Positions 4,515 to 54,080 of a DNA stretch of 64,000 nt are shown here, one piece after another; positions within the stretch are counted from its first letter, which is position 1, and each line of letters opens with the position of its first letter. The DNA is from Capniomyces stellatus (taxonomy: Eukaryota > Kickxellomycota > Harpellomycetes > Harpellales > Legeriomycetaceae), in assembly GCA_001661515.1 (NCBI GenBank), contig LUVW01000026.1, forward strand, positions 137,096 to 201,095, given 5' to 3'. The position numbers and the translations under genes were made by a program. Under the pieces are notes generated by a model. The model saw only the letters and a list, made by a program, of their open reading frames with translations. It was not told the origin of the DNA and made no database searches.

Positions 4515-6764
4515 ATGATGGCCCAAAAGCACGAAGCTGTCAAAGTTGAAGCTATAAAAATGGCCAAGTTGCAAGATGTGGAGAGTAAGGAGGAGTATGC
4601 TAGCTCGGTGGACACCAAAGAGGAAACCCTAAGCGATACGGAAAAGCTAGAATCACAGAGCGTAGAAATAGAAGCAAGGGTGGGAGAGATGGAGAAGGAA
4701 AACAAAGAGGAAGCGGGGGCTAAAGGAGAAACAGGAGGGTCAAGGAGGCAAATAATGGAGGCAGAAAGGGATTCAACGCCGGATACAGACTTGGACGAAG
4801 TGGAAGTAAGTAAGATGGAGAGCAAGTATTCAAGGAAAAATGACATGGAAGAGATAGATGTTCTAAGAAGTAGAAGGCTGACGTTGGAGGGGAAAAAGGC
4901 AGAGATGAACAAGATATTCAGAAACGCAGCGCTGAATGGGAAGCTAGAGAAGCTGGAGCAAATGTGGCGGGATTGGCACACGGCCGGGTGGATCGATGTG
5001 GATGGGCGGGATGTGGATGGACAGACAGCGTTGATATTTGCAAGTTGTTTTGGGCAACTTGACTGTCTACGATTTCTGCTGGAAATTGGGGCGGATGTCA
5101 ACATACAGGACGACAAGGGATGGTCGGCGCTGATGTGGGCAACAAACAACAACTATCACGAGGTGCTAAAAGAGCTGCTGAAACATGGAGCATCACCGCT
5201 TACCAAGAGCAGCAGGGGTCATACAGCGATTAGTATAGCAAACACAAATGTGGCAAACACAAACAGGACAAATGCCCGGAAGAACAGCGGGAGAAAGAGC
5301 AGTTCTGAGGAGTCAGGGGGATTAGGAGGCGAGAACTCAAACTCAAGAACGAGTTTAAGCGATAAGCTGAGGGACTTGACAATCAAAAAAAGAATGGACG
5401 ACGGAATCACATTCTTTGAGAGTTTGGAGCTTCAGGAGGAGCTGAAAGTGAAAGAAAACGAGATGAATGCGTCACAAGTGTTGGAGCTGCTAAAGAACGA
5501 GTCTAGAGTAGAGGAGGATGACATTAAAGGCAGAAGGGGGAGAAGAAAGAGCAAGGGCAGCACAAGTAACAGCTTAGGAAATGTTGGCGAGGAGAATAAC
5601 ATTGGTAGAGATGTGCGGAGAGTGCACAGAAGAAGTTATGGTAAAGGGACGAGCAAAGAGAGCAAGAAATGCAATACCAATAATAGCAGCAGTAGTAGTA
5701 GTGGTAGTAGTAGTGGCGATGAGGGGGAAACATTTGATGAAGAGAATGCGAGGCATTTGGACTTTAATTGGGACGAGGTTCAGCCACACCAAATGTACGC
5801 AGTTCCGCAGTATGAACTAGGCAAGTTTATTAGAAAGGTAGTTTTGGCAGTTGAGCCAAGAGCCAGGCTGGTGCAGCCAAACTCGTTGTTTATCCCCGCA
5901 TCGATGCTGTTTTTGTCAATGAGATTTACAGTGAGTTTGGGGATTCCCGAGTCGTTTGAGCACTTTTTAAACGAGAGTATAGCAGCAATAGTACACACAA
6001 TCCAGACGTCAAAGCAAAAGATAGCGGACTTGGCGTTTTGGATGGCTAATGTGCAGCTGCTAGAGTATTTTCTAGACAAGGACCCGAACTTGGCAGCAAA
6101 ATCGGTGTTAGGGCGAAAAAGGTTGGTCAATTGTGCCAATGATGCGTACATTCTGCTGGTGAACAAGGTGCACGAGATCATAGACGAGTGTCTTGACGAG
6201 TCGTTGCTGGATTATACCCGCGAGCCAGAGATGTTTTCGAATATTGAGTATGAGAAGGAGAAGCCGAGTGGTGGGCTTAGTGGGGCAAGGAGACTTTTGT
6301 TTTTTAGCCTGCGTGAGCCTGAACCAGCACCGTTGCCCAAGGATAAAAACGGGGTTCCCTTACTGAGAGAAAAGTCTAAAATCAAGAGCAGCACGCTTGA
6401 GATCAGCAAAAAGAGCATTGACTTGCGGCGAAGCGATGATGATGAGAAAAAGGCCAGTGCTGCTGCACCCCAGCAAACAGCCAACGAAAACCCCGACAGC
6501 CAGACCAATGCGCTCAACAAGGCACGCAACAGACTGTCGTTTTTCTGGAGAACCGATTCAAAGCCGCTGCCTGCCATCAGCATCACAGCAGACTCAGACC
6601 CCAGAGCCTCTCGGGAAAGTACCGGGGCTGATTCGGCTGCAAGTGCGGCATATCTGGGGCCAGAGGTGAAGCGCAGAAGCAAAGAGGAGGCAGATGGTGG
6701 GAAGTTGGCTGGACAGGCAGATGCAAAGGCAAACAGCGAGTCAAAGTCCCAGTCGCAGCCACCT

Positions 6765-6796
<32 letters not shown>

Positions 6797-8615
6797 AAAG
6801 CTTTCATTGTCTAGAGACTCACATGTAAGCGATAGAGACAGCGAGTTAAAGCGCGAGGAAGGACCGAATCCTAGGACCATTCTTAGCATTTTTGACGACC
6901 TGCTGAAGGTGCTGGATAAGTGTTACCTGCATCCAGGGGTAATCAAGACAATAATGTTGCAGCTGTTGTACTACTTGGGGGCTGAGATGTTCAACCACAT
7001 GATAACCACACGGGAGTTTTGTTGCCGATCAAAGGCGCTTTCAGTTCGTCTAAACCTGACTATAATCACAGACTGGGTTAGGAAAAACCAAGCCAAAATG
7101 TTTGTCAAGAGCGAGGAAGTTGGACAGTTTTTTGAGCCGTTGGTTGAGCTGGTTCAGATCCTGCAAGTCATTACAAGTCTCAAGGATCTAAACTCGTTTG
7201 TTGAGATAGTTAGTGGGTTTAAACACCTCAACGTTCTGCAGCTGGACATCATGATCAAGAATTACAGGTATGAGGTAGGAGAACCCCACGTGTCGCCCCA
7301 GATTATTTGTTACACCCAGCCGCCAGCCGCAAGAGTCCGCGAGCTGCAAAAGCTGCAGAAACCAGCCCCATCCGCAAAAAATAAAGTCAGTTACAGAAGC
7401 AGGATCAACGATGAACACGACTCCTTCAATCCCAGAACATCATTCAGCCATTACTACCCCCAGGACTCTAAACCCAACTCAAACTTCAACAAGCCACTCC
7501 CGCTAACCGACAACAAAGCCAAAAACCGCCGCTCCTACGTTGTTGGTTCCAGGCCCCTGGCTCTGCAGTCATCAACCCTGGTTTCCTTGCCTCTGAGGCC
7601 TGATGGTTCTGCCCAGTCTCTGGCTGTCGAGCAGTCCCGAGACGCTTTGGGCCTGTATCGGAACTCCCTGACTCGCCCCACAGGCGCTGTGAACTTGGAC
7701 CTGGCCAACGACCTGACAATTCCGAATGAAAATCAGTTTCCAACTCTAAGCACCAACCTCAACAGCCCAGCTACGTTCAATCCAGGCCCTGCTCCTGCTG
7801 GCGACATCAGGCTCTCTGCCGAGTTTGTCAGAAACACCAGGCCACAGTCAATGCTTATCAGCCAGTCTATGCATTTTGACATAGCCTCAAACATCCATCC
7901 AGCCATCAACTCTCCCAACCTAATCAACATGGCTGACCCAATGAACGTTCCGGCTACTAGAAACTCAATTTCTGTTACTGATTCCAACATGATTCGCTCA
8001 ACCTCGTCACACAACCCTTCAACCAACTCTGCTCAGCTAGTCCCCACTCAACCTTCAAGAAACCTCAGCACCTCGTTGCACCTCATACCCCAACAACAAC
8101 AACAACCACCACTAAACGACTCGCTTTCAACGCCTTCCTTGTACAACAACAACGTCCAAAACATCTCTGAACTAATGGATACCAAACTTATAGCTGACCT
8201 CGACGTCCCTTCAATATCCTCGTACTTAAATTGGTGGAGATCTATTTCCAAAGAAAAGTCCAAGAATTTCCTTAAAACCAAGTCCCGCCTCCTGGCAAAC
8301 TCAAACAATTCGACTTGCAAAATCGATGTTTCTTTTCCTCATTTCCCACTCACCGTCCAGCTTGTCAGAGACCCCAAAAATATCCGCATTTTCGTTGACC
8401 ACCATGGAAATAAAGACTCCAATGGCTGCCTCTTGGATAGCGAGCCTGTAGATCCAACTGATACCAACATTAATCCCAACAATAATCCCGAATCTAACTC
8501 GGAACCTAAAAGCAACGACTCTGATGCGTCAGGGTTGTCATTCTCCAACTTTTCTGTTGAGCTAACTCCTCTAGTTCCTAATTCCTTTTTTGCCGAATTA
8601 GACTCATTGTCCTGA
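4515..8615 (+). CDS. Ankyrin-repeat and DIL (dilute) domain protein
   Basis: An intronless 1366-residue protein. Residues 1-130 are acidic and charged. Two to three ankyrin repeats lie at about 131-242 (DGQTALIFASCFGQLDCLRF, KGWSALMWATNN). A DIL domain, the fold of the myosin V globular tail, appears in two blocks: about 416-580 (LAFWMANVQLLEYFL, LVNKVHEIIDECL) and about 786-932 (TILSIFDDLLKVLDKCY, GAEMFNHMITTREFCCRS). The two blocks are separated by about 200 low-complexity residues with a glutamine run near 751-761. The tail (940-1366) is Ser/Asn/Pro-rich and probably disordered. Ankyrin plus DIL proteins without a motor are known in fungi; a role as an adaptor in vesicle or actin transport is inferred. 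The start is the first of two adjacent ATGs after a T tract. The 5' half of the coding strand is purine-rich and the 3' half is C-rich. Confidence 0.85.
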
Positions 8616-11188: not shown

Positions 11189-12676
<1,488 letters not shown>

Positions 12677-13060: not shown

Positions 13061-14230
13061 TCAAAACAAAGAGAAGCTGATGGCAAGAATAGAGAATACG
13101 GCGACTAGCGGAGCCTTATTGAATGCCATTGCACCTGAATTCTTATCTTCAGTGCCGGCAGCTAAAGTACTAAGATTTCCCTTGGCAGCCTCTGCGTTGT
13201 ATGACTCGACATTGGTAACACCGGTGGTGTAGCTGTCGTTGCTGTACAGTATGTTTGACTTGGCCTTGACATCGGTGATGTTGTATTTTTTGACAAGGTC
13301 AATAATAGACTCTTTAGTAATATTCAGTTTTGACCCCAATACCTCAGATGCGACCGCGCCAGCAATTGCATGAACTCTTGTTGTTGGGTGGATCCAATCA
13401 GCAAAAAGATAGTCATCAGAGTCTGGGCAGGATGATACAAGCACCTTATCCTTAACTGGGTAGCAACTTTCGTTCACATTTTTGATGTTCATTGCCAATG
13501 ATACCTCTGGGGTGCCAATGAGATGAAGCAACTCGTAAAAATCAAAGATCTTGACATATTCGACCTTATCTTTTTGTGCTGTTCCAAACTCGGTCACCTT
13601 GCTCAAAAGCTTGGCATTAGTGGCAGTTATGTATGCCGTGAATACCCTCAGAGCTGGTGCTGGCAATGTGTTGATTGCTGGTGTCAATACAACATCAGGG
13701 ATGTTTGACACAATCACTCTCTTGTAACCAAAGCCGACCAATCGGCTTACGGATGTCATGATGTTTGATACTACCGAATCAGAAAACTCGGTCATGTTTA
13801 TGGCGCCGGTGGCCAGCAGCTGGGAGCCATCAAGGAAATCGTTTGAGCCAATTTCGATTGCTACAATGTCTTTGGCAATTGCTTTTGTTCCGTTCAAAGA
13901 GCCAAAAGTTTTCATGAAAGAGTCGATTTGGTCGGGGACACTTGGGATTGTGATGTTTTGCTTTGTGAACATGTTCACGCTGGTGTTGTTTGATGTAGCA
14001 CCACCCACGGCGTAGTTTACCAAGGTGAGGTTGTTGTAATGAGCCAAGTACTCGTTCCATACTGGTCCTGTTGAGAATCTCTTGTTCCACCAAGGAACTG
14101 GGAATGTTGCGTTATAGACATTTCCAATATCTGACAAGCTGTTTCCAAAAACGACAAGCTTATCTTTGGCCTCGGCAATGCTCACCAAGCCTACTGCAAA
14201 AAGAGACAATATATTAACTGCTGATACCAT
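13061..14230 (-). CDS. Secreted GDSL/SGNH esterase, copy 1 of 4
   Basis: A 389-residue SGNH-fold hydrolase predicted to cleave ester or lipid substrates at the cell surface. It has a signal peptide (residues 1-21, ending SIAEA). Block I is FGNSLSD with nucleophile Ser31; the usual GDS is GNS here. The oxyanion contributors are Gly77 (NYAVGGATS) and Asn130 (EIGSND), and the catalytic pair is Asp278/His281 in ADWIHPTTR. Several N-glycosylation sequons follow. The C-terminus is small and polar, then hydrophobic (APLVAVFSILAISFSLF), consistent with a GPI-anchor signal. Paralogues at 16320, 18754 and 21337 share orientation, length and a PWWNKRFSTGPVWNEYL-type block. There is no intron. The natural substrate is unknown. 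Confidence 0.88.
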   Translation of the reverse strand: MVSAVNILSLFAVGLVSIAEAKDKLVVFGNSLSDIGNVYNATFPVPWWNKRFSTGPVWNEYLAHYNNLTLVNYAVGGATSNNTSVNMFTKQNITIPSVPDQIDSFMKTFGSLNGTKAIAKDIVAIEIGSNDFLDGSQLLATGAINMTEFSDSVVSNIMTSVSRLVGFGYKRVIVSNIPDVVLTPAINTLPAPALRVFTAYITATNAKLLSKVTEFGTAQKDKVEYVKIFDFYELLHLIGTPEVSLAMNIKNVNESCYPVKDKVLVSSCPDSDDYLFADWIHPTTRVHAIAGAVASEVLGSKLNITKESIIDLVKKYNITDVKAKSNILYSNDSYTTGVTNVESYNAEAAKGNLSTLAAGTEDKNSGAMAFNKAPLVAVFSILAISFSLF

Positions 14231-16319: not shown

Positions 16320-17486
16320 CTAGACCAATACAAGGAATATGGCAAGGATGGCGAATACAGCTGCGATTGATGTCTGGCTTTTGATTGCAGCAGAGTTGGA
16401 ATCTGTAGATACAGCAGACAGCTTTTCAACATTCAATTCAGCAGCCTTTGCGTTGTATGACTCGACTTTGGTAACACCGGTGGTGTAGCTGTCGTTGTTG
16501 TACAGTATGTTTGACTTGGCTTTGATTTCAGTGAGATTGTATTTTTTGACAAGGTCAATAATAGACTCTTGGGTGATGTTGAACTTTGATCCCAATACCT
16601 CGTTTGTAACAGCACCAATAACAGCATGTACTCTTGTTGTAGGATGAGCATCATCGGCAAAGATATAGTCGTCAGAGTCTGGGCATGTAAAGGTCAGGAT
16701 GTTATTTCCAACCTGGTAGCAAACATCTTTTACCACCTTGAAGTTCAGCGAAGCTGATACCATAGGAGTGGTTAGAACGCCCATAAGTTTAGAAAGATCC
16801 TGTAGCTTGACATAGTCTATTTTCCCCTTTTGCTCAACCTCAAACGTACTCAGCATAATATCTAGCCGCTTGTTTGCAAGGTCCAGATACATTTTAAGCA
16901 ATGTTTGCACTGGTACTGGAAGCGTGGTGACCATTGGACTGGCCGACATGTCTGGTATGTTTGAAACAATCAGCCTTTTGTAGCCAAATTTGACAAGTCT
17001 GTTTAGCGAGACCTGGATGTTGTTTATTACAGTATCAGCGTACATATCCATACTGACTACTCCAGCGACTATGACTTCAATTCCATAGAACAGATCGTTT
17101 GAGCCAATTTCAACTGCTACAATGTCTTTGGCAATTCCCTTTGTTCCATTCAACGCACCGAATGCCTTTAAGTACGAGTCTATTTGATCAACGACGCTTG
17201 GGATTGTGATATTCTGTTTTGCCAGCATATTCACACTAGTGTTGTTTGATGTAGCTCCACCCACGGCATAGTTTACCAAGGTGAGGTTGTTGTGGTACGC
17301 CAGGTATTCGTTCCATACTGGTCCTGTTGAGTACCTCTTGTTCCACCAGGGAACCGGGAATGTTCTATCATGTACGTTTCCAATATCCGACAAGCTGTTT
17401 CCAAAAACAATGAGCTTATCTTTGGCCTCGGCAATGCTCACCAAGCCTGCTGCAAAAAGAGACAATAAACCAATAGCTGATACCAT
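16320..17486 (-). CDS. Secreted GDSL/SGNH esterase, copy 2 of 4
   Basis: 388 residues, the closest paralogue of copy 1: the first 100 residues differ at few positions. It has a signal peptide ending SIAEA, nucleophile Ser31 in FGNSLSD, GGATS and EIGSND oxyanion blocks, and the Asp/His pair in ADDAHPTTR. The C-terminal tail (SIAAVFAILAIFLVLV) after an Asn-Ser-Ala-Ala stretch fits a GPI signal. Catalytic residues are intact, so an active surface esterase is inferred. The middle region (about 135-250) has diverged most from copy 1, which is where substrate-binding differences would be expected. Confidence 0.88.
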   Translation of the reverse strand: MVSAIGLLSLFAAGLVSIAEAKDKLIVFGNSLSDIGNVHDRTFPVPWWNKRYSTGPVWNEYLAYHNNLTLVNYAVGGATSNNTSVNMLAKQNITIPSVVDQIDSYLKAFGALNGTKGIAKDIVAVEIGSNDLFYGIEVIVAGVVSMDMYADTVINNIQVSLNRLVKFGYKRLIVSNIPDMSASPMVTTLPVPVQTLLKMYLDLANKRLDIMLSTFEVEQKGKIDYVKLQDLSKLMGVLTTPMVSASLNFKVVKDVCYQVGNNILTFTCPDSDDYIFADDAHPTTRVHAVIGAVTNEVLGSKFNITQESIIDLVKKYNLTEIKAKSNILYNNDSYTTGVTKVESYNAKAAELNVEKLSAVSTDSNSAAIKSQTSIAAVFAILAIFLVLV

Positions 17487-18753: not shown

Positions 18754-19932
18754 CTAAGAGATCAACACAAAACCCAGGGAAATGATCGCTGCTATACAAG
18801 AGCCAGTTACTTTAGAGCTGGAGCTTTGCAGACCAATGGGTGTTGTCGTTACTTTTGGCCGCGGTTTTCCCTTCAGCTTCACCAAGTCGCTTTCGGTTAA
18901 GCTCCAGTTATACGAATCGATTTTGACAATTCCCGTGGAGCTGCTATCAGGGTAGTACATAAAGTTGTCTTTTGTGCCAGCAAGAGTTACGTTGTACCTC
19001 TCAATAATAGAAAGCACTATATCTTCGCTTACGCCATTAAACCCGTTGACGACTTCTGCTGCAATCGCCCCAATCAGAGCGTGCACCCGAGTAGTAGGAT
19101 GTATGGTGTCGGCAAATAGATACTTGTCTGAATTCTCACACGAAGAAATAAGCTTATTGTCTAAAACTCCATAGCATGGCGAGGCGATGTTTTCGATGTG
19201 CAGCGCCTGTGTTACATTTGGATCGTTGAAAACGTCTGTTATCTTGTGCAGGTCAACTATACGTGTCCACCCAGGATACCCTCTTCTGGCAAAAGTAAAC
19301 GTCATGATTCTTCCATATAATTTGGAGTTCGCAATTCTGATGTACCTGTCAATGTTGGCAATCTCTGTTTTAGTTAAAGCCTCGACAGCTGGCGTGATCG
19401 ACAAATTCGGGATATTAAAGACCAGTATATTTCTGTAGCCAAAGTCTGCAATCATAGTTACTGAGCGCATTATACTCGAGACCAACGAGTCGGTAAAAAC
19501 ATCTATATCAATAGAGTTTGACGAAAGCGGCCCGATAGAGTACAGTATATCATTTGACCCTATCTCGATTGCAACAATGTCATCACTAATGCTCTTTTTA
19601 TCAAAGTGTTTTCCAATTTCATTTGAAAAGGACTCTATTTGATTGATTGCACTAGGTATTATGGATGTCGTGTTGGAAAAAATATTTAAACTTGTATTAT
19701 TTGAAGCAGCTCCTCCTATCGCAAAACTCATCAAAGTGTAGTTTTTGTAAAAAGAAAGGTATTCGTTCCAAACAGGGCCAGTGGAAAATCGCTTATTCCA
19801 CCATGGTATTGGATATGTGCTAAAGTTGATATTGCCGGTGTCAGATAGACTATTCCCAAAAACCAGCAGTTTTTTGTTTGCCTCAACCTTGCTCAGCAGT
19901 ATAAGCACAAAGGTAGATATCAATATTCTCAT
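18754..19932 (-). CDS. Secreted GDSL/SGNH esterase, copy 3 of 4
   Basis: 392 residues. The signal peptide is residues 1-18 (MRILISTFVLILLSKVEA). Block I reads VFGNSLSDTGN with the Ser present, the GGAAS and EIGSND blocks are intact, and the catalytic Asp/His lie in ADTIHPTTR. The C-terminal VTGSCIAAIISLGFVLIS fits a GPI signal. It is more diverged than copies 1 and 2 but keeps the PWWNKRFSTGPVWNEYL block. All catalytic residues are present, so an active surface esterase is inferred. Confidence 0.87.
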   Translation of the reverse strand: MRILISTFVLILLSKVEANKKLLVFGNSLSDTGNINFSTYPIPWWNKRFSTGPVWNEYLSFYKNYTLMSFAIGGAASNNTSLNIFSNTTSIIPSAINQIESFSNEIGKHFDKKSISDDIVAIEIGSNDILYSIGPLSSNSIDIDVFTDSLVSSIMRSVTMIADFGYRNILVFNIPNLSITPAVEALTKTEIANIDRYIRIANSKLYGRIMTFTFARRGYPGWTRIVDLHKITDVFNDPNVTQALHIENIASPCYGVLDNKLISSCENSDKYLFADTIHPTTRVHALIGAIAAEVVNGFNGVSEDIVLSIIERYNVTLAGTKDNFMYYPDSSSTGIVKIDSYNWSLTESDLVKLKGKPRPKVTTTPIGLQSSSSKVTGSCIAAIISLGFVLIS

Positions 19933-21336: not shown

Positions 21337-22515
21337 CTATAAAAGTGTGGAAAAGAGCAAACAAGTAGCTGATAGCAAAAGCAAAACACCAGTGCCCGAC
21401 TTGGTGTTGCTTCCGGATGAGTACCTGAATGCTTCTCTTCCTGTTGCGATTTTTGTAGAGTTGCCTTCTGCCTGTTTCCTATTATAAGAACTGATTTTGA
21501 CCAATCCAGTGGTGTTGCTATTTTGCTTATAAATAAAGTTGCTCTTGGAGCCAGCAGATGGTATGCTGTACATCTTGATGTGAGATAGTACGGATTGTTG
21601 ACTAAGACCATCAAGCCCTCTTGACGCTTTGGTTGCCATAGCCCCAATCAGAGCATGAATACGGGTTGTAGGGTAATACGAGTCTGCGTATATATAGGAG
21701 TCTGATTCATCGCATGAGGAAACCAGGCGGTTATTCAACTCAATGTAGCATGGTGCACTGGTGGATTTGATGCCCAGGGCCTCAGTGACATTAGGTGTGT
21801 TAAAAAGCTGGAATAAGGTATACAAGTCGAGTATCTGCACAGAGTTGGTGGTTTTATTTGATTCTTTTATTAAATCCGTAACACTGGTGTACAGCTTGGC
21901 GTTGATTTCCTTGATGCAGTTCTCGACCGGCTTCAAGTACGACTCTGGCAATTTAGAAATAGCAGGAAGTAAGGTTAAGTCTGGGATGTTTGATACGATA
22001 AACTTTTTGAATCCAAAGCCATCAAGTTTACGAACCGAGTTCATGATATTTGAGACCAAGTTGTCCGAAAAAGAGTCAATGTCGGTGGAGTTTGAATAAA
22101 TGTGCCCAATAGAGTTTATAACGTCGTTGGATCCTATTTCGATAGACACCAAGTCGGTCTCCATATCAGTCTTTTTCATCTGGTTTCCTATCTTTTCAAT
22201 AAACGAATCGACTTGTTTGGGAAGACTGGGCGCCTTGGTCTGCGCATCAGAGTCAGCAGCTTCATCGGTGTCGTTCGACAATGCACCACCAAAAGCGTAG
22301 TTGACTAGAGTGTAGTTGTCAAAGTAGGCCAAGTACTCGTTCCAGACGGGACCTGTGGAAAACCTGTTATTCCACCATGGCACTACTTGTTCTGTGTTGT
22401 TTGAATTGCCTATATCCGATAGGCCGTTTCCAAAAACGATCAATTTGTTTTTAGCCTCAGTAATCGTCACCACCGAGCCTAAAAGCGCGAGTAGAGTTTT
22501 TGTTTTTATTGCCAT
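21337..22515 (-). CDS. GDSL/SGNH paralogue 4, predicted catalytically dead
   Basis: An intact 392-residue frame with a signal peptide (ending TITEA), the PWWNNRFSTGPVWNEYL block, GGALS and EIGSND oxyanion blocks and a C-terminal GPI-type tail (GVLLLLSATCLLFSTLL). Two catalytic positions differ from the three sister copies. The nucleophile is Gly31 (FGNGLSD, codon GGC at 22423-22425, AGC-like in the sisters). The catalytic His is Tyr281 (ADSYYPTTR, codon TAC at 21673-21675). Asp278 remains. Both changes are one-base transitions. Retention of the frame and sorting signals suggests a maintained pseudoenzyme, for example a binding protein, or very recent loss. Hydrolysis by the usual SGNH mechanism is not expected. 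Confidence 0.88.
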   Translation of the reverse strand: MAIKTKTLLALLGSVVTITEAKNKLIVFGNGLSDIGNSNNTEQVVPWWNNRFSTGPVWNEYLAYFDNYTLVNYAFGGALSNDTDEAADSDAQTKAPSLPKQVDSFIEKIGNQMKKTDMETDLVSIEIGSNDVINSIGHIYSNSTDIDSFSDNLVSNIMNSVRKLDGFGFKKFIVSNIPDLTLLPAISKLPESYLKPVENCIKEINAKLYTSVTDLIKESNKTTNSVQILDLYTLFQLFNTPNVTEALGIKSTSAPCYIELNNRLVSSCDESDSYIYADSYYPTTRIHALIGAMATKASRGLDGLSQQSVLSHIKMYSIPSAGSKSNFIYKQNSNTTGLVKISSYNRKQAEGNSTKIATGREAFRYSSGSNTKSGTGVLLLLSATCLLFSTLL

Positions 22516-24631: not shown

Positions 24632-27057
24632 ATGTATCAAGATAATTTTGATGATGAGTTTTCAGGAGACATTAATGTCGAGGTAGTTGCTGATTCATAT
24701 GCAGCAAGAGATGATTTTGAAGATGGAGAAGTTACCAAAGGTAAGATGCTAAAAAAAAAAGGAAATTGATATATTATTTAGTAATGCAAATGTTGAGTTT
24801 AGGGCTGAGATGTTTTGATCAGTCAAGATTAAAGGGGGGGGGGGGAAGCAATGAAAAAAAAAAAGAATGTGTGAAGAGGGAATAAAAATAAAGAAGATGA
24901 AATGGTATGATTAATAGAGCTTGAGGAGATCCAAATTGAGCAGAAACTTTTACATGACAAGCATCAGGAGCAGCTGCAGGCAGGGATTGAGTCGATTCCA
25001 GATCAAGTTAGAGATTTCTTGCTGTACTTCCACAGAACAGTAATTCAGCTGAATACAGGCAAAATCACACACATTTACGAGTATCAATTTAACAAGTTGA
25101 GCGAGAGATACTTTGCAAAAGCAGCGTGGCCAGAGCCAAAGTATGTATCGGCACTTGTGAAGGATAGCGGAGTGTTTCTAACGCTGTACAAAGAGCTGTA
25201 CTACCGTCACATTTATAGTCGTTTGCAGTTGAGTCTGGAGGTCAGAATTCTTTCGTTTGAGAATTACTGTGATCTGTTCAACTACATTTTGAGTAAGTAA
25301 ACGAAAAAGAAAATAGAATAGATAAACAGAGTTGTAATGGTGATGTTGATATTGAGTATGTTTGATTATTTTATTTTATTTTGAAGAGAAGAGGAAGGGG
25401 ATTAGAGAAGGTGTTGGGCTAACAATAGAAGCTAATGTAAACATTAAATGTAGACTCTGATAAGCCAGTCAGCCTTGAGCTTCCAAACCAGTGGCTATGG
25501 GATATTATTGATGAGTTCATCTATCAATTCCAGACATTCTGTGCCTATAGAAACAACTTGAACAAAAAGACACAGGAAGAGATCGAACTGTTGAAGTCAT
25601 CGCCAACAGTAAGTCAAAAATAGGAGTTTAGGGTTGTGGGGAGGGGGGGGGGGGGGGGGGGGGGGGGTGGTATAGAGGGTGTTTGATAGCTTAGTAATAG
25701 GGGATATGAGAGGAAAGTTGATATGGAATAAAGAGAAATAACGATTGTGATGGTTTTATAGGTCTGGAACACGCACAGTGTACTGAACGTGTTGTACAGT
25801 TTGGTGTCTAAATCGAACATTACACAGCAGCTACATGCAGGAATTCACGGAGGAGATTTGGGGTAAGTAGAGAGTTAGGGTTGTTTAGGGTTGTTTAGGG
25901 TTGTATAGGGTTGGATATTGTCGAGTGTGACATGCATAGTGTGTAAAGTAGATAAATGATTAAAAGTGGATGTGGTGTTGTAATGTAGAGAAATAGCAGG
26001 AGAGTACGGATCATGTACACTGTACAAGATGCTTGGATACTTCAGTTTGATTGGGCTGTTGCGTGTGCACTGTTTGTTGGGAGATTATACATTGGCGCTG
26101 CAGAGTTTGGAGAACATTGAATTGGGCAACCACCGGGCGTTGTTTACGCGAGTACCAGCATGTCACGTGACGCTGTACTACTATGTGGGATTTTCGTACT
26201 TGATGATGAGAAGATACGCAGACGCAACAAGGACGTTTGCAGGAATCTTGACGTTTATTTCACGTACAAGACAGTACCAAACACGGTCATTCCAATTTGA
26301 CATAGTGAACAAGAAGGCAGACCAGATGTACGCGCTTCTTGCAATCTGCATGGCGTTGTCACCAACAAGAGTTGATGAGCAGATCCACAGTCAGCTGAGA
26401 GAAAAGTACGGAGACCAGCAAATGCGGATGCAGCGAGGAGGCGAGGAGTCACTGACGACATTCCAGGAACTGTTTATGTATGCTTGTCCAAAGTTCATCA
26501 GCCCAAATGCACCAAACTACGATCTGTTTATCAGCAAAAACAAAAACGAGGAGGGCGACTCTGGTGCCGAGTCAGACGACGACGAGGCTGCGGCCGAATC
26601 CGAGTCCGAGCTTGAACCCGAGTCCGAGTCCACTGAAGGCCGACCAAAGAGAGCCAAGTACAACAAGTTTGAGCTCCAGGCATACCAAATGAAGATCTTT
26701 ATGCACGAAGTAAGCCTACAACTCGTCATCCCCACTCTCAGATCCTTCCTCAGACTCTACACCAGCATGAAGCTCGACAAACTCGCGTCTTTCCTGGACA
26801 TTTCCCCAAGCGAGCTCCACACCCAGCTTCTTGTCTTTAAGCAAAGAGCAAAACAGCTCAAGTGGGTTGGTGGTGCCAGTTTGCTTGAAGGCGAGATGTC
26901 TGTCACCAGCGATTTGGGTTTTGCTATTGACAACGACGTTGTTTATATTGCCGAAAACAAGGTTGGCCGCAGATATGCTGATTGGTTCATCAGAAACTCT
27001 GTTCGACTCCAGGATCTCGTCAACAACTTGGAATCCAAAAGCATCCACTCTGCCTAA
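24632..27057 (+). CDS. Translation initiation factor eIF3 subunit L, five exons
   Basis: A PCI-domain subunit of eIF3, the scaffold that brings the 40S subunit and mRNA together. The exons are 24632-24740, 24918-25292, 25454-25608, 25762-25862 and 25989-27057. They join in frame to 602 residues (family about 560-600). Diagnostic blocks are LYKELYYRHIYSRLQ, LELPNQWLWDIIDEFIYQFQ, VLNVLYSLVSKSNI, YKMLGYFSLIGLLRVH and YYVGFSYLMMRRYADA, with the C-terminal PCI/winged-helix region ending near SVRLQDLVNNLESK. An acidic insert (about residues 450-480, Glu/Ser-rich) precedes the PCI part. Introns 1 and 3 hold runs of 12 and 25 G, and intron 4 holds TTAGGGTTGT repeats. The coding strand switches from G-rich to C-rich near 26705. 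Confidence in the product is high, and each exon border is frame-checked. Confidence 0.95.
24834..24845 (+). repeat. Poly-G run in eIF3L intron 1
   Basis: Twelve consecutive G on the sense strand inside intron 1. It could form a G-quadruplex in the pre-mRNA. Confidence 0.85.
25643..25667 (+). repeat. 25-nt poly-G run in eIF3L intron 3
   Basis: Twenty-five uninterrupted G on the sense strand, about 34 nt after the donor site, flanked by GGG triplets. The exact length should be treated with caution because homopolymers this long are error-prone in sequencing. Confidence 0.8.
25874..25913 (+). repeat. Telomere-like TTAGGGTTGT repeats in eIF3L intron 4
   Basis: Four copies of TTAGGG or TATAGGG, each followed by TTG, lie immediately after the donor. 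The copies are regularly spaced GGG triplets on the sense strand. Confidence 0.8.
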
Positions 27058-35516: not shown

Positions 35517-38500
35517 ATGGGTAGCAAAATATGGTTCTTTATACTTATATTATCAGCTACATGTCTTAATGTGGACGCAAATGAGCTGAACACAGTAAGG
35601 GTGAAGGTAGGAGAGCATTACACGGGGATTATAAAGCCTGGGGAAGTGCAGAAGATAAGGATAACAGTGCCTGGACTCAACAGCGACAACGGCAAAGAGA
35701 ATGAAAATGAGGTTGACCATGCAATAGTAGCGAAAAAATGGTCGTTGAAGCCACAGCCGTTTAGAAAAAGAAGAAATCCAGGATTCAAAGAAATATTTAT
35801 GAGAAATAAAGTTGTAAAATACCTAAACGAATACAATATAATCAACATGGAGTCAATACCAGAGTTTCTTGATAGACAAAAACAAAAGTACTTTGACCCA
35901 AACAAACACAAACAGAAAGACAATGATGAAAAACACAAAAAAAAAGAACACTGGAAAGCCGGAATACTTGGACACAAAAATACAGTCCCACGTAAAAATA
36001 ATATCGACTCAAAAAACGGAATGAAGGGGGGCAGTTCCCAGAGTTTAAAAAAAAGAAAGCCAAACAAGTTGGCTTCGTTTCTACAAGGTAAGTGACGAGC
36101 TGTAGCATTTTTACCTTATAAACACCCTTGTAGTCGTTTAACAGCAGTGTGATGTTTTTTTTGGATAGGCGCAAGTTGTGAAAAGAGCGCACTGTTCGTT
36201 GACAAGATTATCAATATGTCGTTTCCCAATGTTGATGCAGAATTCTTGCCAAATACAATCTACTCTAAATTGGAGATATGCAAGATGCCCTTACAGCACA
36301 ATGAGTCCGAACCATCTTTAGCAAAGTCGCTAGAACTTAGTCTGGACTTTTCACACATGACCCAAGGTGATATGGTGGTTAGAGACATTAAGCATTTTGA
36401 AATGACCGAGGCTGATGTGTACCCATATCCCAACGGGTTGCTAGAAATCACTCTTAGCGTAGGGGAGCACAACAACCTTTTTGCAATAATAACTGCACCA
36501 GAGGATCCGAGCAGAAGCAACGATACGTACACTTACACGTTCTTGTCGATGAGCCATGGTAAAGGAAACATAAATTTATCATTTGGAAATTTGGCACTGA
36601 ATTGATCTAATCCTAATCCTAATCCTAATCCTAATTCTAATCCTAATCCTAATCCTAAATCTAAATCTAAATCTAAATTTAAAGCATACATAAATACACT
36701 GATCTGAAAATAATTGTAGAAGAGTACATTGAGCTAAGTCGATACAATTTTGGTTTAAAAACAAATATGGCTGTAAGCACAGATATTAACTCGGCGGTAT
36801 TTTCGTTGACAATTCCAGAAGATATAACCCGCAGCCATAGTTCGTTTTATATTCGACCATTTATGTCTACGTATCTGTCAAGATCAACCTGTGCAATAGA
36901 GCGACTAGCAACCAAGGTGTTGCCAAATCACAATTCGCAGATATTTTTAAAAAAGAAATTCTCAGACAAGCTAGAAAATTTGGGGTTCCACATGGATACC
37001 TTTGGAAGTGACTACACTAGCACAATTTTTGACAGTGCTGTAGATGCTATGAAGCGGTGCGTTGACGAAAATGTCCACTTGGAAAAGTTTAACTATATGC
37101 ATATCCACGCTGTTGGGCTAAAGAACGGGAAAAAATACCAAGCATACTACATTGACCCAGGAAATGATGGCAGGTCACTAAAACACGTACACTCGGAGAT
37201 CCCATTTAGATTAACTTATAGTAAGAATATGAATTGCCCTGTATTTTATAAATAGGCCAGAGCCACATGTCTGTGGTGGACTCTCTGTATGAAACTATAC
37301 CCACTCACATTTAAAAAAATGCACACAAGAAGACACTACTACAAATACACCAACTTTAAAAGTAGTGAGATAGCATGATTCTAACCAAATACAAACTTGG
37401 TTGTTTGTTTAGGCGAAATTTGTAGAGTGCTATATCTAGTGCCAAACTGCCCTGATATAAACTACTCGGCGCCAGCCCCTCTCGATCTTCGGCCAAATTA
37501 CCCAGACTTTGAAAGACCACTGAATCCCACCGAGATTCTTAATTTCAACAAGACGTTGGCTTTGTCGCTTTTGTACTCTAGAAAAATAAACGATTACTTA
37601 AAAAGGTTCGAAAATGGGCTGCAGAGATCAAATTGCGAGGGAAAGGCTTTTTCCTCCATATCAACGTGTAGCGATTGTAAAAAAGAGTATTCGAGGTGGC
37701 TATGTGCTGTCACTATCCCATCGTGTATGGGAGTAAACTTGGTCAAATTTAATACCACTGAGTTGGAAAAAATAAAGAAATTGATACCCGGGCTTTATAA
37801 ATCAATACAGCTTCTTCAAGGAATAACCGATATCAAGCCGCTTGGCGATCCAGAAAATTGCAGAAATTCAACAGAGTCAAAAAGAAAACTAATAAACAAT
37901 AATGATGGCCCAGGTGATTACAGAATTGCAAACACCAGCTCGAATGGTCAAGCTTATGGAAAATATGCTGAAAGCTTATTCGACAAAACCACAGCTCGAA
38001 CTATCAGGGAGTGCGTTGGTGCGACGTGTGATTTTTTGTATACGGGAGAAAGCTTTCTTTTTATAAAGCCATGTATTGGGGTTTGCACTAGAGTTCCAAG
38101 ATTTTGTCCATCGTACCTTAACTTCAAATGCCCTAATTCCAAGAATGACAATCTGCTAAACTCAAGTTATGGTGTGGATTTAAAGTTGAATTTGATAAGT
38201 GATGAATATCTGCTAAAAGTGTACTCCTCATGTGAAAAAGTGCAATCGTTCTTTGGTGGAGACTACATACACGATAATGTCACTTTTTTGGATATGTACA
38301 GGGAGGAAGTCAAAAGGAGCTTTGCGCAAGATCACACGGACGATAAAATAGCCAACTTTTCGGAACTAACGCAAAGCGATATTTTGAGTGTGATAGCAGG
38401 ATATTTTGAACTCCAGCTCTTGATGAGCGGCAGAGGTACATGCAACTTTCCGGGCTACATTAAGAAGCTAAACGGTGCAAATGAAAAAGTTACTTTGAAC

Positions 38501-38596
38501 GCCAAGAAATTTGGAACATTTGGAGAGTTTCTCTTGAATTGCGTTGTGACATTCGTCTTTATTTCGGGGTTAAAAGTTGTTATCGACATGCAATGA
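35517..38596 (+). CDS. Mid1-type stretch-activated calcium channel subunit, four exons
   Basis: Regulatory subunit of the fungal Cch1-Mid1 plasma-membrane calcium channel. The exons are 35517-36087, 36169-36558, 36720-37220 and 37413-38596, giving 881 residues, longer than yeast Mid1 (548). A signal peptide (MGSKIWFFILILSATCLNVDA) starts the protein. A very basic Lys-rich insert (about 75-190) follows and is unusual for the family. The cysteine-rich C-terminal part is diagnostic: CSDCKKEYSRWLCAVTIPSC and later RECVGATCDFLYTG and KPCIGVCTRVPRFCPSYL, as in Mid1/Ehs1. Many N-glycosylation sequons are present, and a final hydrophobic segment (FLLNCVVTFVFISGLKVVI) ends the protein. Exon borders carry the frame exactly. 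Intron 2 contains a (TCCTAA)n array. Confidence 0.85.
36605..36680. repeat. (TCCTAA)n array grading into (ATCTAA)n in Mid1-like intron 2
   Basis: About eight TCCTAA units, then five ATCTAA-type units. The minus strand reads TTAGGA, one base from the common telomere hexamer TTAGGG. It lies wholly between donor 36559 and acceptor 36719. Confidence 0.9.
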
Positions 38597-50648: not shown

Positions 50649-52337
50649 TTAGTCATCACCTTTTGTATTGTAATACTGGTGGTTCTGATCCAATAAAATA
50701 GAGTCGATTTCTCTGTCAAACTCGGGTGCATTTATGGACGGAAGAGTGATAGAGCTGGGGAAAAAGTGACTGTTTGGATTTTCAATGTATTCATTTGTAC
50801 AGTTTCCATTTAGTATTGACCCATTGGCATTGTCGGTGCTATAAAGCATTCCAGGATAGTTCACGATGCTGAAAGCCGACTCTACATTTTCGTCCCGAAT
50901 ATTACTTTCCCCCGAGTAGCCGTCTACATTTCCTCGTATGCTGCCAACATCGTTCTCGTAGTCACAGTTTAGGTAGCTATTGTAGTTATGGTTTTGGTTT
51001 TGGTTTTGGTTCTGGTTTTGGTTCTGGTTCTGGTTTTGGTCAAACTGCTGGCTTTGGTTTTGGTTCTGGTCAAACTGATGGTTCATTTCACTGTTGTAGT
51101 AGTTCTCGCCCTGCAAATTCATACTATAGTCTAGTGGAATTGCAGAGTTAATATTGGGTCGATAAATATTAGAGTATCCGTTGAGGTATATCGGAGGATT
51201 GTTTTCGTTCCTACTGTATTCCACCTGATTTAGCACTCCAGACAGGCTTGAGCAGCTGTATGATTCCTGTGGGTGCTCGTTTGTGTTTTCAGCGCAGTTG
51301 CTGGTAGGCGAGTCTATCTGCTTAGACTGGTAGTAGTCATCAGAATTTTCAGGCTTGGTTACTTCGGTTGGTACGTGGTTAGTTCTCAGATTGTGTACGT
51401 TGGGTTCGTAGTGGATCATCTGTATAACCTTCCGATCCTTGTATTCCTGGTAGGCGTGTCCATTATGCTGATCATTGACCTTGTACTGACCAGATGTTGA
51501 GGGGTTGCCTTCGTTTGTGGACTTGTTATAGCTGGTGTGGTCGTAGGCTTTATATGGGTCGCTTGTAAGGATTGTGGGTTTGTATTTTGAGTAGGATCCC
51601 AACGAAGTGTACCCTATTTTGAACTGCTCTGTCTGCTGGGAGGACTCTGTCTCAAACAGTGGGCGTAGCGGGTTGTAGATGTTATGCTTTTCAGCTAGAA
51701 ACTTTGCTCTCTCAAACGTTATCCAGACCCCCTTAAGATACATTGCGCCTGTTTTTACCACTTTTCTGTCCTTTTCGTTTTTTAGAATACCATCTCTCTT
51801 CCCCCTGGTCATCTTTGTTACGTTTAACAGCTTTGTTCCGTTGACCATGTTGTTATCCTGTCTCCGAGCAACAGTTATTCCGTCATACTCATAGTTTAGC
51901 GTTTTTGTTCTTTCATCCTCCCAATTCGATGTAGTTAGCGGGTTTCTGGACCTGTTGTATCTACCCTTGTAATAGCTGTCGTAGCTTTTATATATATTGT
52001 TGCTGTTTGAAAGGTATGTATTTAGTTGGTATGTATTGGTGTTATATCCGAAATTGTTTTTGGCTTGCGAATATTTATTAAAGTCCTGTATGCCCATTTC
52101 CGAATAGGGCTCCCAGGAGCCACTGACTAATCCTTTGTAATGGTTTTCTGCGCCAATGCTTAGTTCCACGTTGCTGTGATTGTCAAGCAGTCTGGCTGGC
52201 TCATTGGGATCGGCAGTTTTGGGGGTAAAGTTATGGTAGCTGGACTCTAGTTTGGGTTTAGGCGTCCCATACTCTGTTTTTAGAGTACTTCCTTCTGACG
52301 AGGACTGTGCTATTATTTCTGGCTTCGAGTTCTTCAT
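50649..52337 (-). CDS. APSES-domain transcription factor, StuA/Efg1-like
   Basis: 562 residues, no intron. The APSES (KilA-N-like) DNA-binding domain occupies about residues 137-230. It contains [39 protein letters not shown] and [20 protein letters not shown], the pattern of StuA, Asm1, Efg1 and Phd1, which control fungal development and morphogenesis. No ankyrin repeats follow, which separates it from Swi6/Mbp1-type APSES proteins. The flanks are Tyr/Asn/Ser-rich and disordered, and a Gln-Asn array (about 425-450) is encoded by hexanucleotide repeats. Nuclear location is expected. Target genes cannot be inferred. Confidence 0.93.
50990..51070 (-). repeat. Coding hexanucleotide array for Gln-Asn repeats
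   Basis: Tandem CAGAAC/CAAAAC units on the coding strand encode alternating Gln and Asn in the APSES factor. Two larger FDQNQ-type copies flank it. A prion-like, length-variable segment is likely. Confidence 0.85.
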
Positions 52338-54080
52338 AGTTGGTTGCTTGAAAGTAAAAACAATAAAATAGGCATTTATCTATTGATTTCTACAGTATTT
52401 GGACAAAAGCGTTTTAGTCGGTATTATTAGGCCTTAGTAGCTAACAAGTTGGAGTGGTAACTCTGGAAACAATGAAAGAAAAATCAAGTACGTAGGGACC
52501 ACATAAACTTACAGCTTTCAAGTATTTAAACCGAGTATTTAGCTATATCCTCTTTTCAGTTGCTTTCAATGTTTGCTTTAATCAAGTAAAGGCGCTCCAA
52601 ATGTTATATTAATTGAATGTATTGCTATGTGTTTGTAATTTGGAGGCAAGCGATTATCAAAAATAAACTTCTTCAAGTTAAACAAAATGCAAGCGCTAGC
52701 AGCAGCCATTATATACAAGTCTAGACGCATTATAGTTTAACATTAAATGATATTTGTAAATGATCCGAGGCATTTGTTTTTACAGAAAGTTCTATTTAAA
52801 AAGGATGAGCTAATGGGATGCCAGCCTTTCGATGCCTTTATCTTGCTTGAAAACAACTAAAAGTGAGTAAAAAAGAAAAAAGTTGCAAAAGCTATGGGGC
52901 AGTACATGTATACACGGCAAATATAGCATGATGGAGTATACAGAGCATCATTAGTATATCCAAGTAATAAAAATAATAAAAAAACTGATCAATCATCCAA
53001 CTTGTGGTTTCCAACAAATCAAAAGTCAAAATAGAATCAAAGAAAAAAAAATAGTTGATATCAACTTTATGTACAATTGAGTAATGGTGCTTTTTGAAAT
53101 TGAGTTTGTTGTAGTGCGCTATATATTTTTGTTGGATTTTACTACCAACAGGTTTGGTGTTTGGGTATTCTTGTTTTGCAAGTTAATTCTATTTGTGATT
53201 TGGGTCAATTCCAACGAAGCTGGCACTCTTTTTTCACTGCGTGGATTCCTGGAGACAAAACTGTTTGTTCTTCAAAGCAAACCTCACCATCTTAAAAAAT
53301 GCCACTTGAATATTAAGACAAATCACAAGTCCAATAAATCAAGCTAAAAGTAATGTACCAACTATGAATCTCTTCAAAAAAATAATTAACACGTATATAT
53401 ATATGTGTGTTTGTTTTCCAAAACATCAGTTTGTGTTTGGATTTGGCTCTTTAATCACTCAACAACATCGCCTCAAAAAGAAGAAGGAAAGGTGATGTTC
53501 CAAACCCCAAGATACATGGAATAAGTCCTATTGGGTATATTTATGAAATCTTGGAATAAAAACGCTTTCTCTTTATTGATATATAATTTTTTTGTCAACT
53601 ATAACTCAGTAAAGTGCAATAACAAACATTAACTCGGTTATGCATTTGGTAGTGTTTATTTCCAAATTAAACACTGCAGCCTGCCCAAACAACTGTAATA
53701 GATGTGTAGGTATTTATGTCAACTTGGGGTAGGAAATGTGAATCATTGTTGATCTAAATAGCCAACAGTTTAAATGGAACATGCGTGATATTGTAAGTGT
53801 ACATGTAAATATTGTGTGTAGAGTAGTTTTAAATTTTGAACTAGGCTACTAGTCGATCAAAATAATAAAAGTAGAATTCTAGAAGATAAATGGATAACTA
53901 TACAAAGCCAACACCATAAATTCGTACCATCAAACTACCAGGTAATAGTAGATGGCAAGTGCTGTATTCTCAGCGCAACTTCGTTTACTTGGTCTGGTAT
54001 TTAATTGGAATATTGGTTCCAGACTTTTACGACACTAATGAGGCCAGAGATCTTTTTGCGGCAAAAAGAGCCAAAACTAA

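Follow-up and report, generated by a model that had tools for sequence, protein, structure and literature searches.

The window analysed here, a stretch of 64,000 nucleotides of contig LUVW01000026.1 of the gut fungus Capniomyces stellatus, carries an array of four genes of the SGNH/GDSL type, all read from the minus strand. The last of them, copy 4 (21337..22515, 392 amino acids plus the stop), has lost both the catalytic serine and the catalytic histidine of the family. We consider it probable that copy 4 is a secreted SGNH pseudoenzyme, most likely held at the cell surface by a glycosylphosphatidylinositol (GPI) anchor, which no longer hydrolyses its substrate and is kept to bind an ester or lipid ligand. 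Copy 4 does not stand alone: judging from residues and trees, catalytic losses appear to recur in the family as several separate events.

The frame and the active site of copy 4

The open reading frame of copy 4 runs from an ATG through 392 codons with zero internal stops or frameshifts. Read directly, codon 31 (22423..22425, minus strand) is GGC, which puts a glycine at the position of the nucleophile in the motif FGNGLSD, and codon 281 (21673..21675, minus strand) is TAC, a tyrosine at the position of the catalytic histidine in ADSYYPTTR. When the four array copies are aligned, these two residues stand opposite the serine and the histidine of copies 1 to 3 (13061..14230, 16320..17486 and 18754..19932, all on the minus strand), which are catalytically complete and all read FGNSLSD and D-x-x-H-P-T-T-R. 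Counted by the offset between aligned ranges, Gly31 and Tyr281 also correspond to Ser38 and His288 of ChoE, the acetylcholinesterase of Pseudomonas aeruginosa. The other active-site residues are retained in the family alignment: the oxyanion glycine of block II at codon 77 (22285..22287), the oxyanion asparagine of block III at codon 130, in GSND (22126..22128), and the triad aspartate of block V at codon 278 (21682..21684), all three on the minus strand. A preliminary description of this DNA had reported the unbroken frame, both substitutions, the complete copies 1 to 3 and the intact oxyanion motifs, and each of these readings is borne out. It had also called the two losses independent: there are indeed two, but S31G and H281Y are each one transition away from a serine or histidine codon, and neither their independence nor their order can be demonstrated from such changes.

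Copy 4 belongs to the superfamily by its score against the Pfam family Lipase_GDSL (PF00657), 53.2 bits for a cut-off of 23.6. Of the residues expected in a competent SGNH hydrolase, it has the glycine, the asparagine and the aspartate, and is missing the serine of block I and the histidine of block V. An open frame with lost catalytic residues is what one expects of a pseudoenzyme. The marks of a pseudogene, namely stops, frameshifts or a neutrally evolving branch, are not seen: neutrality is rejected for the branch as a whole, although the last part of the branch may differ.

The ends of the protein suggest where it may act. Simple hydropathy picks out a hydrophobic N-terminus, likely a signal peptide, at about residues 1-21 (22453..22515, minus strand), where the confidence of the structural model (pLDDT) is low at residues 1-18, and a hydrophobic tail resembling a GPI signal at about residues 376-392 (21340..21390, minus strand). 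Because of these two segments, copy 4 is probably a secreted protein, GPI-anchored at the surface. An AlphaFold prediction gives copy 4 an alpha/beta/alpha fold of the SGNH type. Alignments reveal, beyond the SGNH core, a C-terminal extension at about residues 303-345 (21481..21609, minus strand), in which Y316, N326, G337 and Y344 are conserved in most members of the family, live or dead, and which falls outside the span of most of the solved structures in the alignment (model residues 20-302).

With glycine in place of the nucleophile and tyrosine in place of the histidine, copy 4 would no longer hydrolyse esters. That it is inactive is likely, by analogy, since the loss of the serine alone, or of the histidine alone, abolished the activity of another SGNH lipase, according to the mutagenesis passages of PMC10779480. 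The retained pocket, with Gly77, Asn130 and Asp278 on an intact fold, would then bind a ligand bearing an ester, choline or acyl group and leave it uncleaved; at the surface of the hypha, such binding could make copy 4 an adhesin, a receptor or a sequestering protein. There exist structures whose titles describe the S38A and H288N mutants of ChoE in complex with acetylthiocholine, so that a substrate can probably sit in an SGNH pocket that lacks either residue. For copy 4 itself, we infer the binding of a ligand, a lipid- or ester-binding or decoy role, and selection after the loss.

Loss of catalytic residues across the family

Searched with copy 4, the genome, which spans 24.5 Mb in 59 contigs, gave at least 32 matches; the loci located in this way yield at least 23 family members, copies 1 to 4 included, with an uninterrupted frame over the domain. 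Two of the counted members call for some caution: the minus-strand gene of L010, whose frame has no Met start, and L025, which aligns poorly. The count leaves out L024, which lies at a contig edge and misses its N-terminus, L019, which has one in-frame stop, and the fragment loci L026-L030. Seven of the 23 lack the serine, the histidine or both, and five lack both. Copy 4 had been presented as the single inactive copy of its array, which holds within the array, copies 1 to 3 being complete, but not for the family. Besides copy 4 (Ser to Gly, His to Tyr), both residues are replaced in L014 (Gly and Lys), L021 (1012-2217, minus strand; Gln and Ile, the aspartate being lost as well), L022 (Gly and Asn) and L023 (Gly and Ser). 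The plus-strand gene of L010 retains its serine, with His changed to Asn and Asn130 to Asp, and the gene at 1148 of L011 retains its histidine, with Ser changed to Thr and Asn130 to Cys.

Other members retain the serine and the histidine and differ elsewhere: Asn130 is lost in L017 and L025, and Gly77 is replaced by Phe, Tyr, Ser and Phe, respectively, in L015, L016, L018 and L020, a group of paralogues without the hydrophobic C-terminal tail. A hydrophobic C-terminus (a 13-residue mean above 2) is found in all seven members that lack the serine or the histidine, versus 6 of the 16 others (Fisher 0.0075), a weak association given that kinship is uncorrected and that some gene ends may conceal introns. 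Among the catalytically complete members, L013:4274-5938 (plus strand) has a frame that extends over 555 residues, longer than most by about 150, with a C-terminus rich in Thr, Val and Ala.

The best protein matches of copy 4, with 34-39% identity, belong to the insect-gut Harpellales Furculomyces, Smittium and Zancudomyces, and Mycoemilia follows at 28%. Several of the Harpellales relatives are annotated as thermolabile hemolysin, a label that comes from annotation and not from an assay of function. Sixteen fungal database proteins, picked by similarity and not as a census, include three without the serine: P0017 (Glu, the histidine being absent as well), P0019 (Gly) and P0093 (Thr), the last of which, with P0094, was read by eye. 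P0093, from Smittium angustum, and P0094, from Furculomyces boomerangus, are similar proteins, with Thr at the nucleophile position in the first and Ser in the second. After the Harpellales and Mycoemilia, the next best matches among the scored candidates, limited to those sharing most words, are bacterial autotransporter esterases, several of them labelled Brevundimonas; the family may conceivably have a horizontal origin.

How unusual is a proportion of seven in 23? In the relevant passages of PMC4757993, three of 116 Arabidopsis GDSL sequences are called dead, and the comparison gives a Fisher probability of 1.2e-4, to be taken as a rough yardstick. The same passages report that one or more essential motifs are missing from 171 of the 820 GDSL sequences annotated by Pfam in 12 plant proteomes; the excess seen here thus hinges on the criterion by which a member is declared dead.

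On a tree of 43 rows, the dead state changes at least five times, and the minimum becomes six when the active-site columns are masked and a different alignment mode is used. A single loss common to all ten dead rows is rejected by the approximately unbiased (AU) test (p 0.0002), for a constraint group that was defined by residues but chosen after the first tree had been inspected; gathering an older dead group of six rows into one clade is not rejected (p-AU 0.52). In the masked tree, the minus-strand gene of L010 falls inside this older group. Since the minimum, the support values and the placement of this gene all shift after masking and realignment, the losses can be counted only approximately. 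Copies 3 and 4 are sisters, with support 99/90, and 88/88 once the catalytic columns are masked. The trees cover neither L024 and L025 nor P0093 and P0094.

One of these losses is apparently shared by two fungi. L021 and P0017 (AX774_g2089 of Zancudomyces culisetae) are sisters in two trees, with support 100/99 and 100/98; in each of them the frame is open and Ser, Asp and His are gone, and the two have in common the changes G76P, A78S, D278G and P282L. They were compared by tree and by residues, P0017 as a protein. Most simply, their loss happened before the two fungi diverged, and in that case one lineage or more has probably long preserved dead frames. For the comparison with related genomes proposed in the preliminary description, protein searches, in part limited to the candidates sharing most words, yield no ortholog of copy 4; an apparently common loss is seen in this other lineage.

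Recurrent, intact and dead copies suggest that the fungus keeps inactive members for a job other than catalysis. A broader proposal, which we put forward tentatively and regard as somewhat less than an even bet, is that surface esterases of the Harpellales have repeatedly given rise to anchored, non-hydrolytic SGNH ligand binders, which would act inside the insect gut as receptors, as adhesins or as decoys; the residues of catalysis would have been lost several times independently, with the fold and the family-specific C-terminal extension kept. In nearly a third of one predicted surface family of a gut fungus (7 of 23), catalytic residues are missing although the frames are open, the result of several separate events. 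If the dead members do bind surface ligands, they form a natural series for studying the passage from hydrolase to binding protein, and may help to explain how these little-studied fungi cling to the insect gut or sense it.

Selection on copy 4 and competing explanations

The conservation of copy 4 was evaluated at the 41 positions where at least 90% of a set of 19 catalytically complete relatives agree. These live rows were selected for having all five active-site residues, and the five corresponding positions are therefore conserved by construction; the rows exclude the minus-strand genes of L010 and L011, together with L015, L016, L018, L020, L017, L025 and P0007, all of which have Ser and His in place but Gly77, Asn130 or Asp278 altered. 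Copy 4 changed three of the 41 positions: S31G, H281Y and Y169F. In a leave-one-out comparison, the live rows changed 0 to 4 positions, and ten other dead or altered rows (among them L017 and P0007, in which Ser and His are present) changed 7 to 12, with 9 for L021 and 8 for P0017. The chance that three random changes would include both catalytic positions is 0.0037. At the 21 strictly invariant positions, copy 4 changed two, exactly the catalytic pair (chance 0.0048), and with a threshold of 80% it changed 6 of 57.

The ratio of nonsynonymous to synonymous rates (omega, or dN/dS) on the branch of copy 4, a check that the preliminary description had recommended, was estimated at 0.185 with a codon model of our own. 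The value omega = 1 is rejected for the branch as a whole, with a likelihood-ratio statistic of 12.80, a value attained in 0 of 200 data sets simulated with omega = 1, and the branch is indistinguishable from the background (p 0.59). In this array set of five tips, only copy 2 differs from the background (omega 0.411, p 0.011). The older dead clade has an omega of 0.049 versus 0.039 for its background, a weak sign, with branch lengths at the bound and a fit for L022 that did not converge.

Several observations weigh against reading copy 4 as a maintained binding protein. Of the 88 positions that are invariant in its four nearest live paralogues, 12 are altered in copy 4, the catalytic pair included (p 0.017): it does drift, and is not frozen. 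Synonymous sites are near saturation, with third-position identities of 0.30-0.56 among the five genes, and the omega of the branch averages over the time before the loss as well. Protein searches, two of which scored only candidates sharing most words, found no ortholog of copy 4, and for this reason selection before the loss and selection after it cannot be told apart. AlphaFold hardly responds to point changes, and both models were built on an alignment made up mostly of live relatives. Finally, PSA_Lip of the basidiomycete Pleurotus sapidus, a GDS(L)-like hydrolase whose SGNH motif is non-standard, is active and keeps its putative nucleophile serine, according to extracts of PMC11372007, so that losing the motif is not always losing the activity. 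Judged by the conserved sites, a recent loss fits about as well as maintenance. The earlier proposal of a maintained pseudoenzyme is thus supported by the frame, the conserved sites, the non-neutral branch and the recurrence in the family, and goes beyond the data where selection after the loss in copy 4 is concerned.

The main rival explanation, to which we give perhaps one chance in a handful, is that copy 4 is a pseudogene in waiting: it would now evolve neutrally, be too young to have gathered stops or frameshifts, and owe its signal of selection to the time before the loss. The missing ortholog, which would have dated the loss, the pre-loss time included in omega, the two single transitions and the 12 changes among 88 positions all suit this explanation. 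Moreover, other family loci are broken by stops: one in L019, seven in L028 and two in L029 within the aligned pieces, hidden introns being a possible source of part of those in L029. However, neutral drift must then have hit both catalytic positions and at most one of the 39 other conserved positions, for which we obtain 3.5e-4 with a flat prior on the rate, and it must be squared with losses that recur in intact frames, in one lineage apparently older than a split between genera. A plain single pseudogene is disfavoured by the intact frame and the conserved sites, and only a very recent loss keeps the weight given above. The two broken loci L019 and L028 each have a stop at the conserved position of Trp58 (GPV* in tblastn).

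It is rather improbable that copy 4 acts instead as a regulatory or scaffold subunit, pairing with the active copies 1 to 3 or with other surface proteins and tuning their activity or placement, though among the functional alternatives a partnership with active copies comes first. This analogy draws on the plant protein ERMO3, which has a glycine at the serine position and works in a protein complex in Arabidopsis, as described in parts of PMC3498303 and PMC4757993. Complete and inactive copies do lie side by side in the array, and two of the six other dead genes (L010 and L011) lie within a few kb of a member that keeps Ser and His, but the remaining four (L014, L021, L022 and L023) are the sole family members in the 3 kb stretches examined.

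Very little credit goes to an altered catalysis, with the task of the lost residues passed to a different one, or with a different chemistry in the active site. Tyr281 and Asp278 keep polar groups in the pocket, and the activity of PSA_Lip sets a precedent, but that enzyme retained its putative nucleophile, position 31 of copy 4 offers none, and a single loss was enough to abolish the SGNH lipase tested by mutagenesis. Ser33 and His287 are not compensating gains, since they are also conserved in copies 1 to 3. As for an assembly or sequencing error, it is hardly credible: both codon changes are single-base transitions, but two separate errors would have had to fall precisely on the two catalytic codons, and losses of this kind are also seen elsewhere in the genome and in proteins that databases hold for other species.

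The surroundings of the array and known systems

The third-position GC content of copy 4, 0.50, lies within the family range of 0.41-0.54 (25 rows) and is uninformative. No promoter motif is common to all four copies in the 300 bases upstream, where only short matches were found. Elsewhere in the window, Pfam identifies DIL together with ankyrin repeats (4515-8615), an enolase C-terminal domain (11672-12676), Paf67 (25984-27057) and a Mid1 channel component (37385-38596) on the plus strand, and a KilA-N domain (50649-52379) on the minus strand; among the 9 of 15 long frames outside the array that were scanned with Pfam, there is no additional esterase.

The thermolabile hemolysin of Vibrio, or VvPlpA, has phospholipase activity. 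Its structures (6JL1, 8H09) are the best sequence match to copy 4 among solved structures (E 1.6e-13, residues 20-294), and its chain has more than 130 residues ahead of the part that aligns. ChoE (6UQV and its mutants) is bacterial and, unlike copy 4, has a complete triad; its aligned chain range, 29-306, goes no further than the start of the C-terminal extension in copy 4. PSA_Lip is fungal and, like copy 4, departs from the SGNH motif, with the difference, in the same extracts of PMC11372007, that it is active with its putative nucleophile kept where copy 4 has a glycine. L021 and P0017 belong to the same fungal family as copy 4 and have lost Ser, Asp and His; they are more diverged than copy 4 and sit in a different part of the tree.

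At the level of titles and the openings of abstracts, we recognised no description of recurrent SGNH pseudoenzymes in the Harpellales or other fungi in the open-licence literature, and neither GDSL nor hemolysin occurs as a term in the main texts of the Harpellales genome papers PMC5954228 and PMC12611240. The nearest parallel is ERMO3 of Arabidopsis, also named MVP1 or GOLD36 (At1g54030), a GDSL pseudoenzyme without lipase activity according to passages of PMC4757993 and PMC3498303. The latter passages describe it as binding GDSL-like proteins, jacalin-related lectins and MATH proteins, in a role independent of enzymatic activity. The likeness, drawn from descriptions and not from a direct test of homology, lies in the glycine at the position of the nucleophile; ERMO3 is a plant protein of the endoplasmic reticulum and vacuole, whereas copy 4 is fungal and likely anchored at the surface. 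SGNH pseudoenzymes are thus already known in plants.
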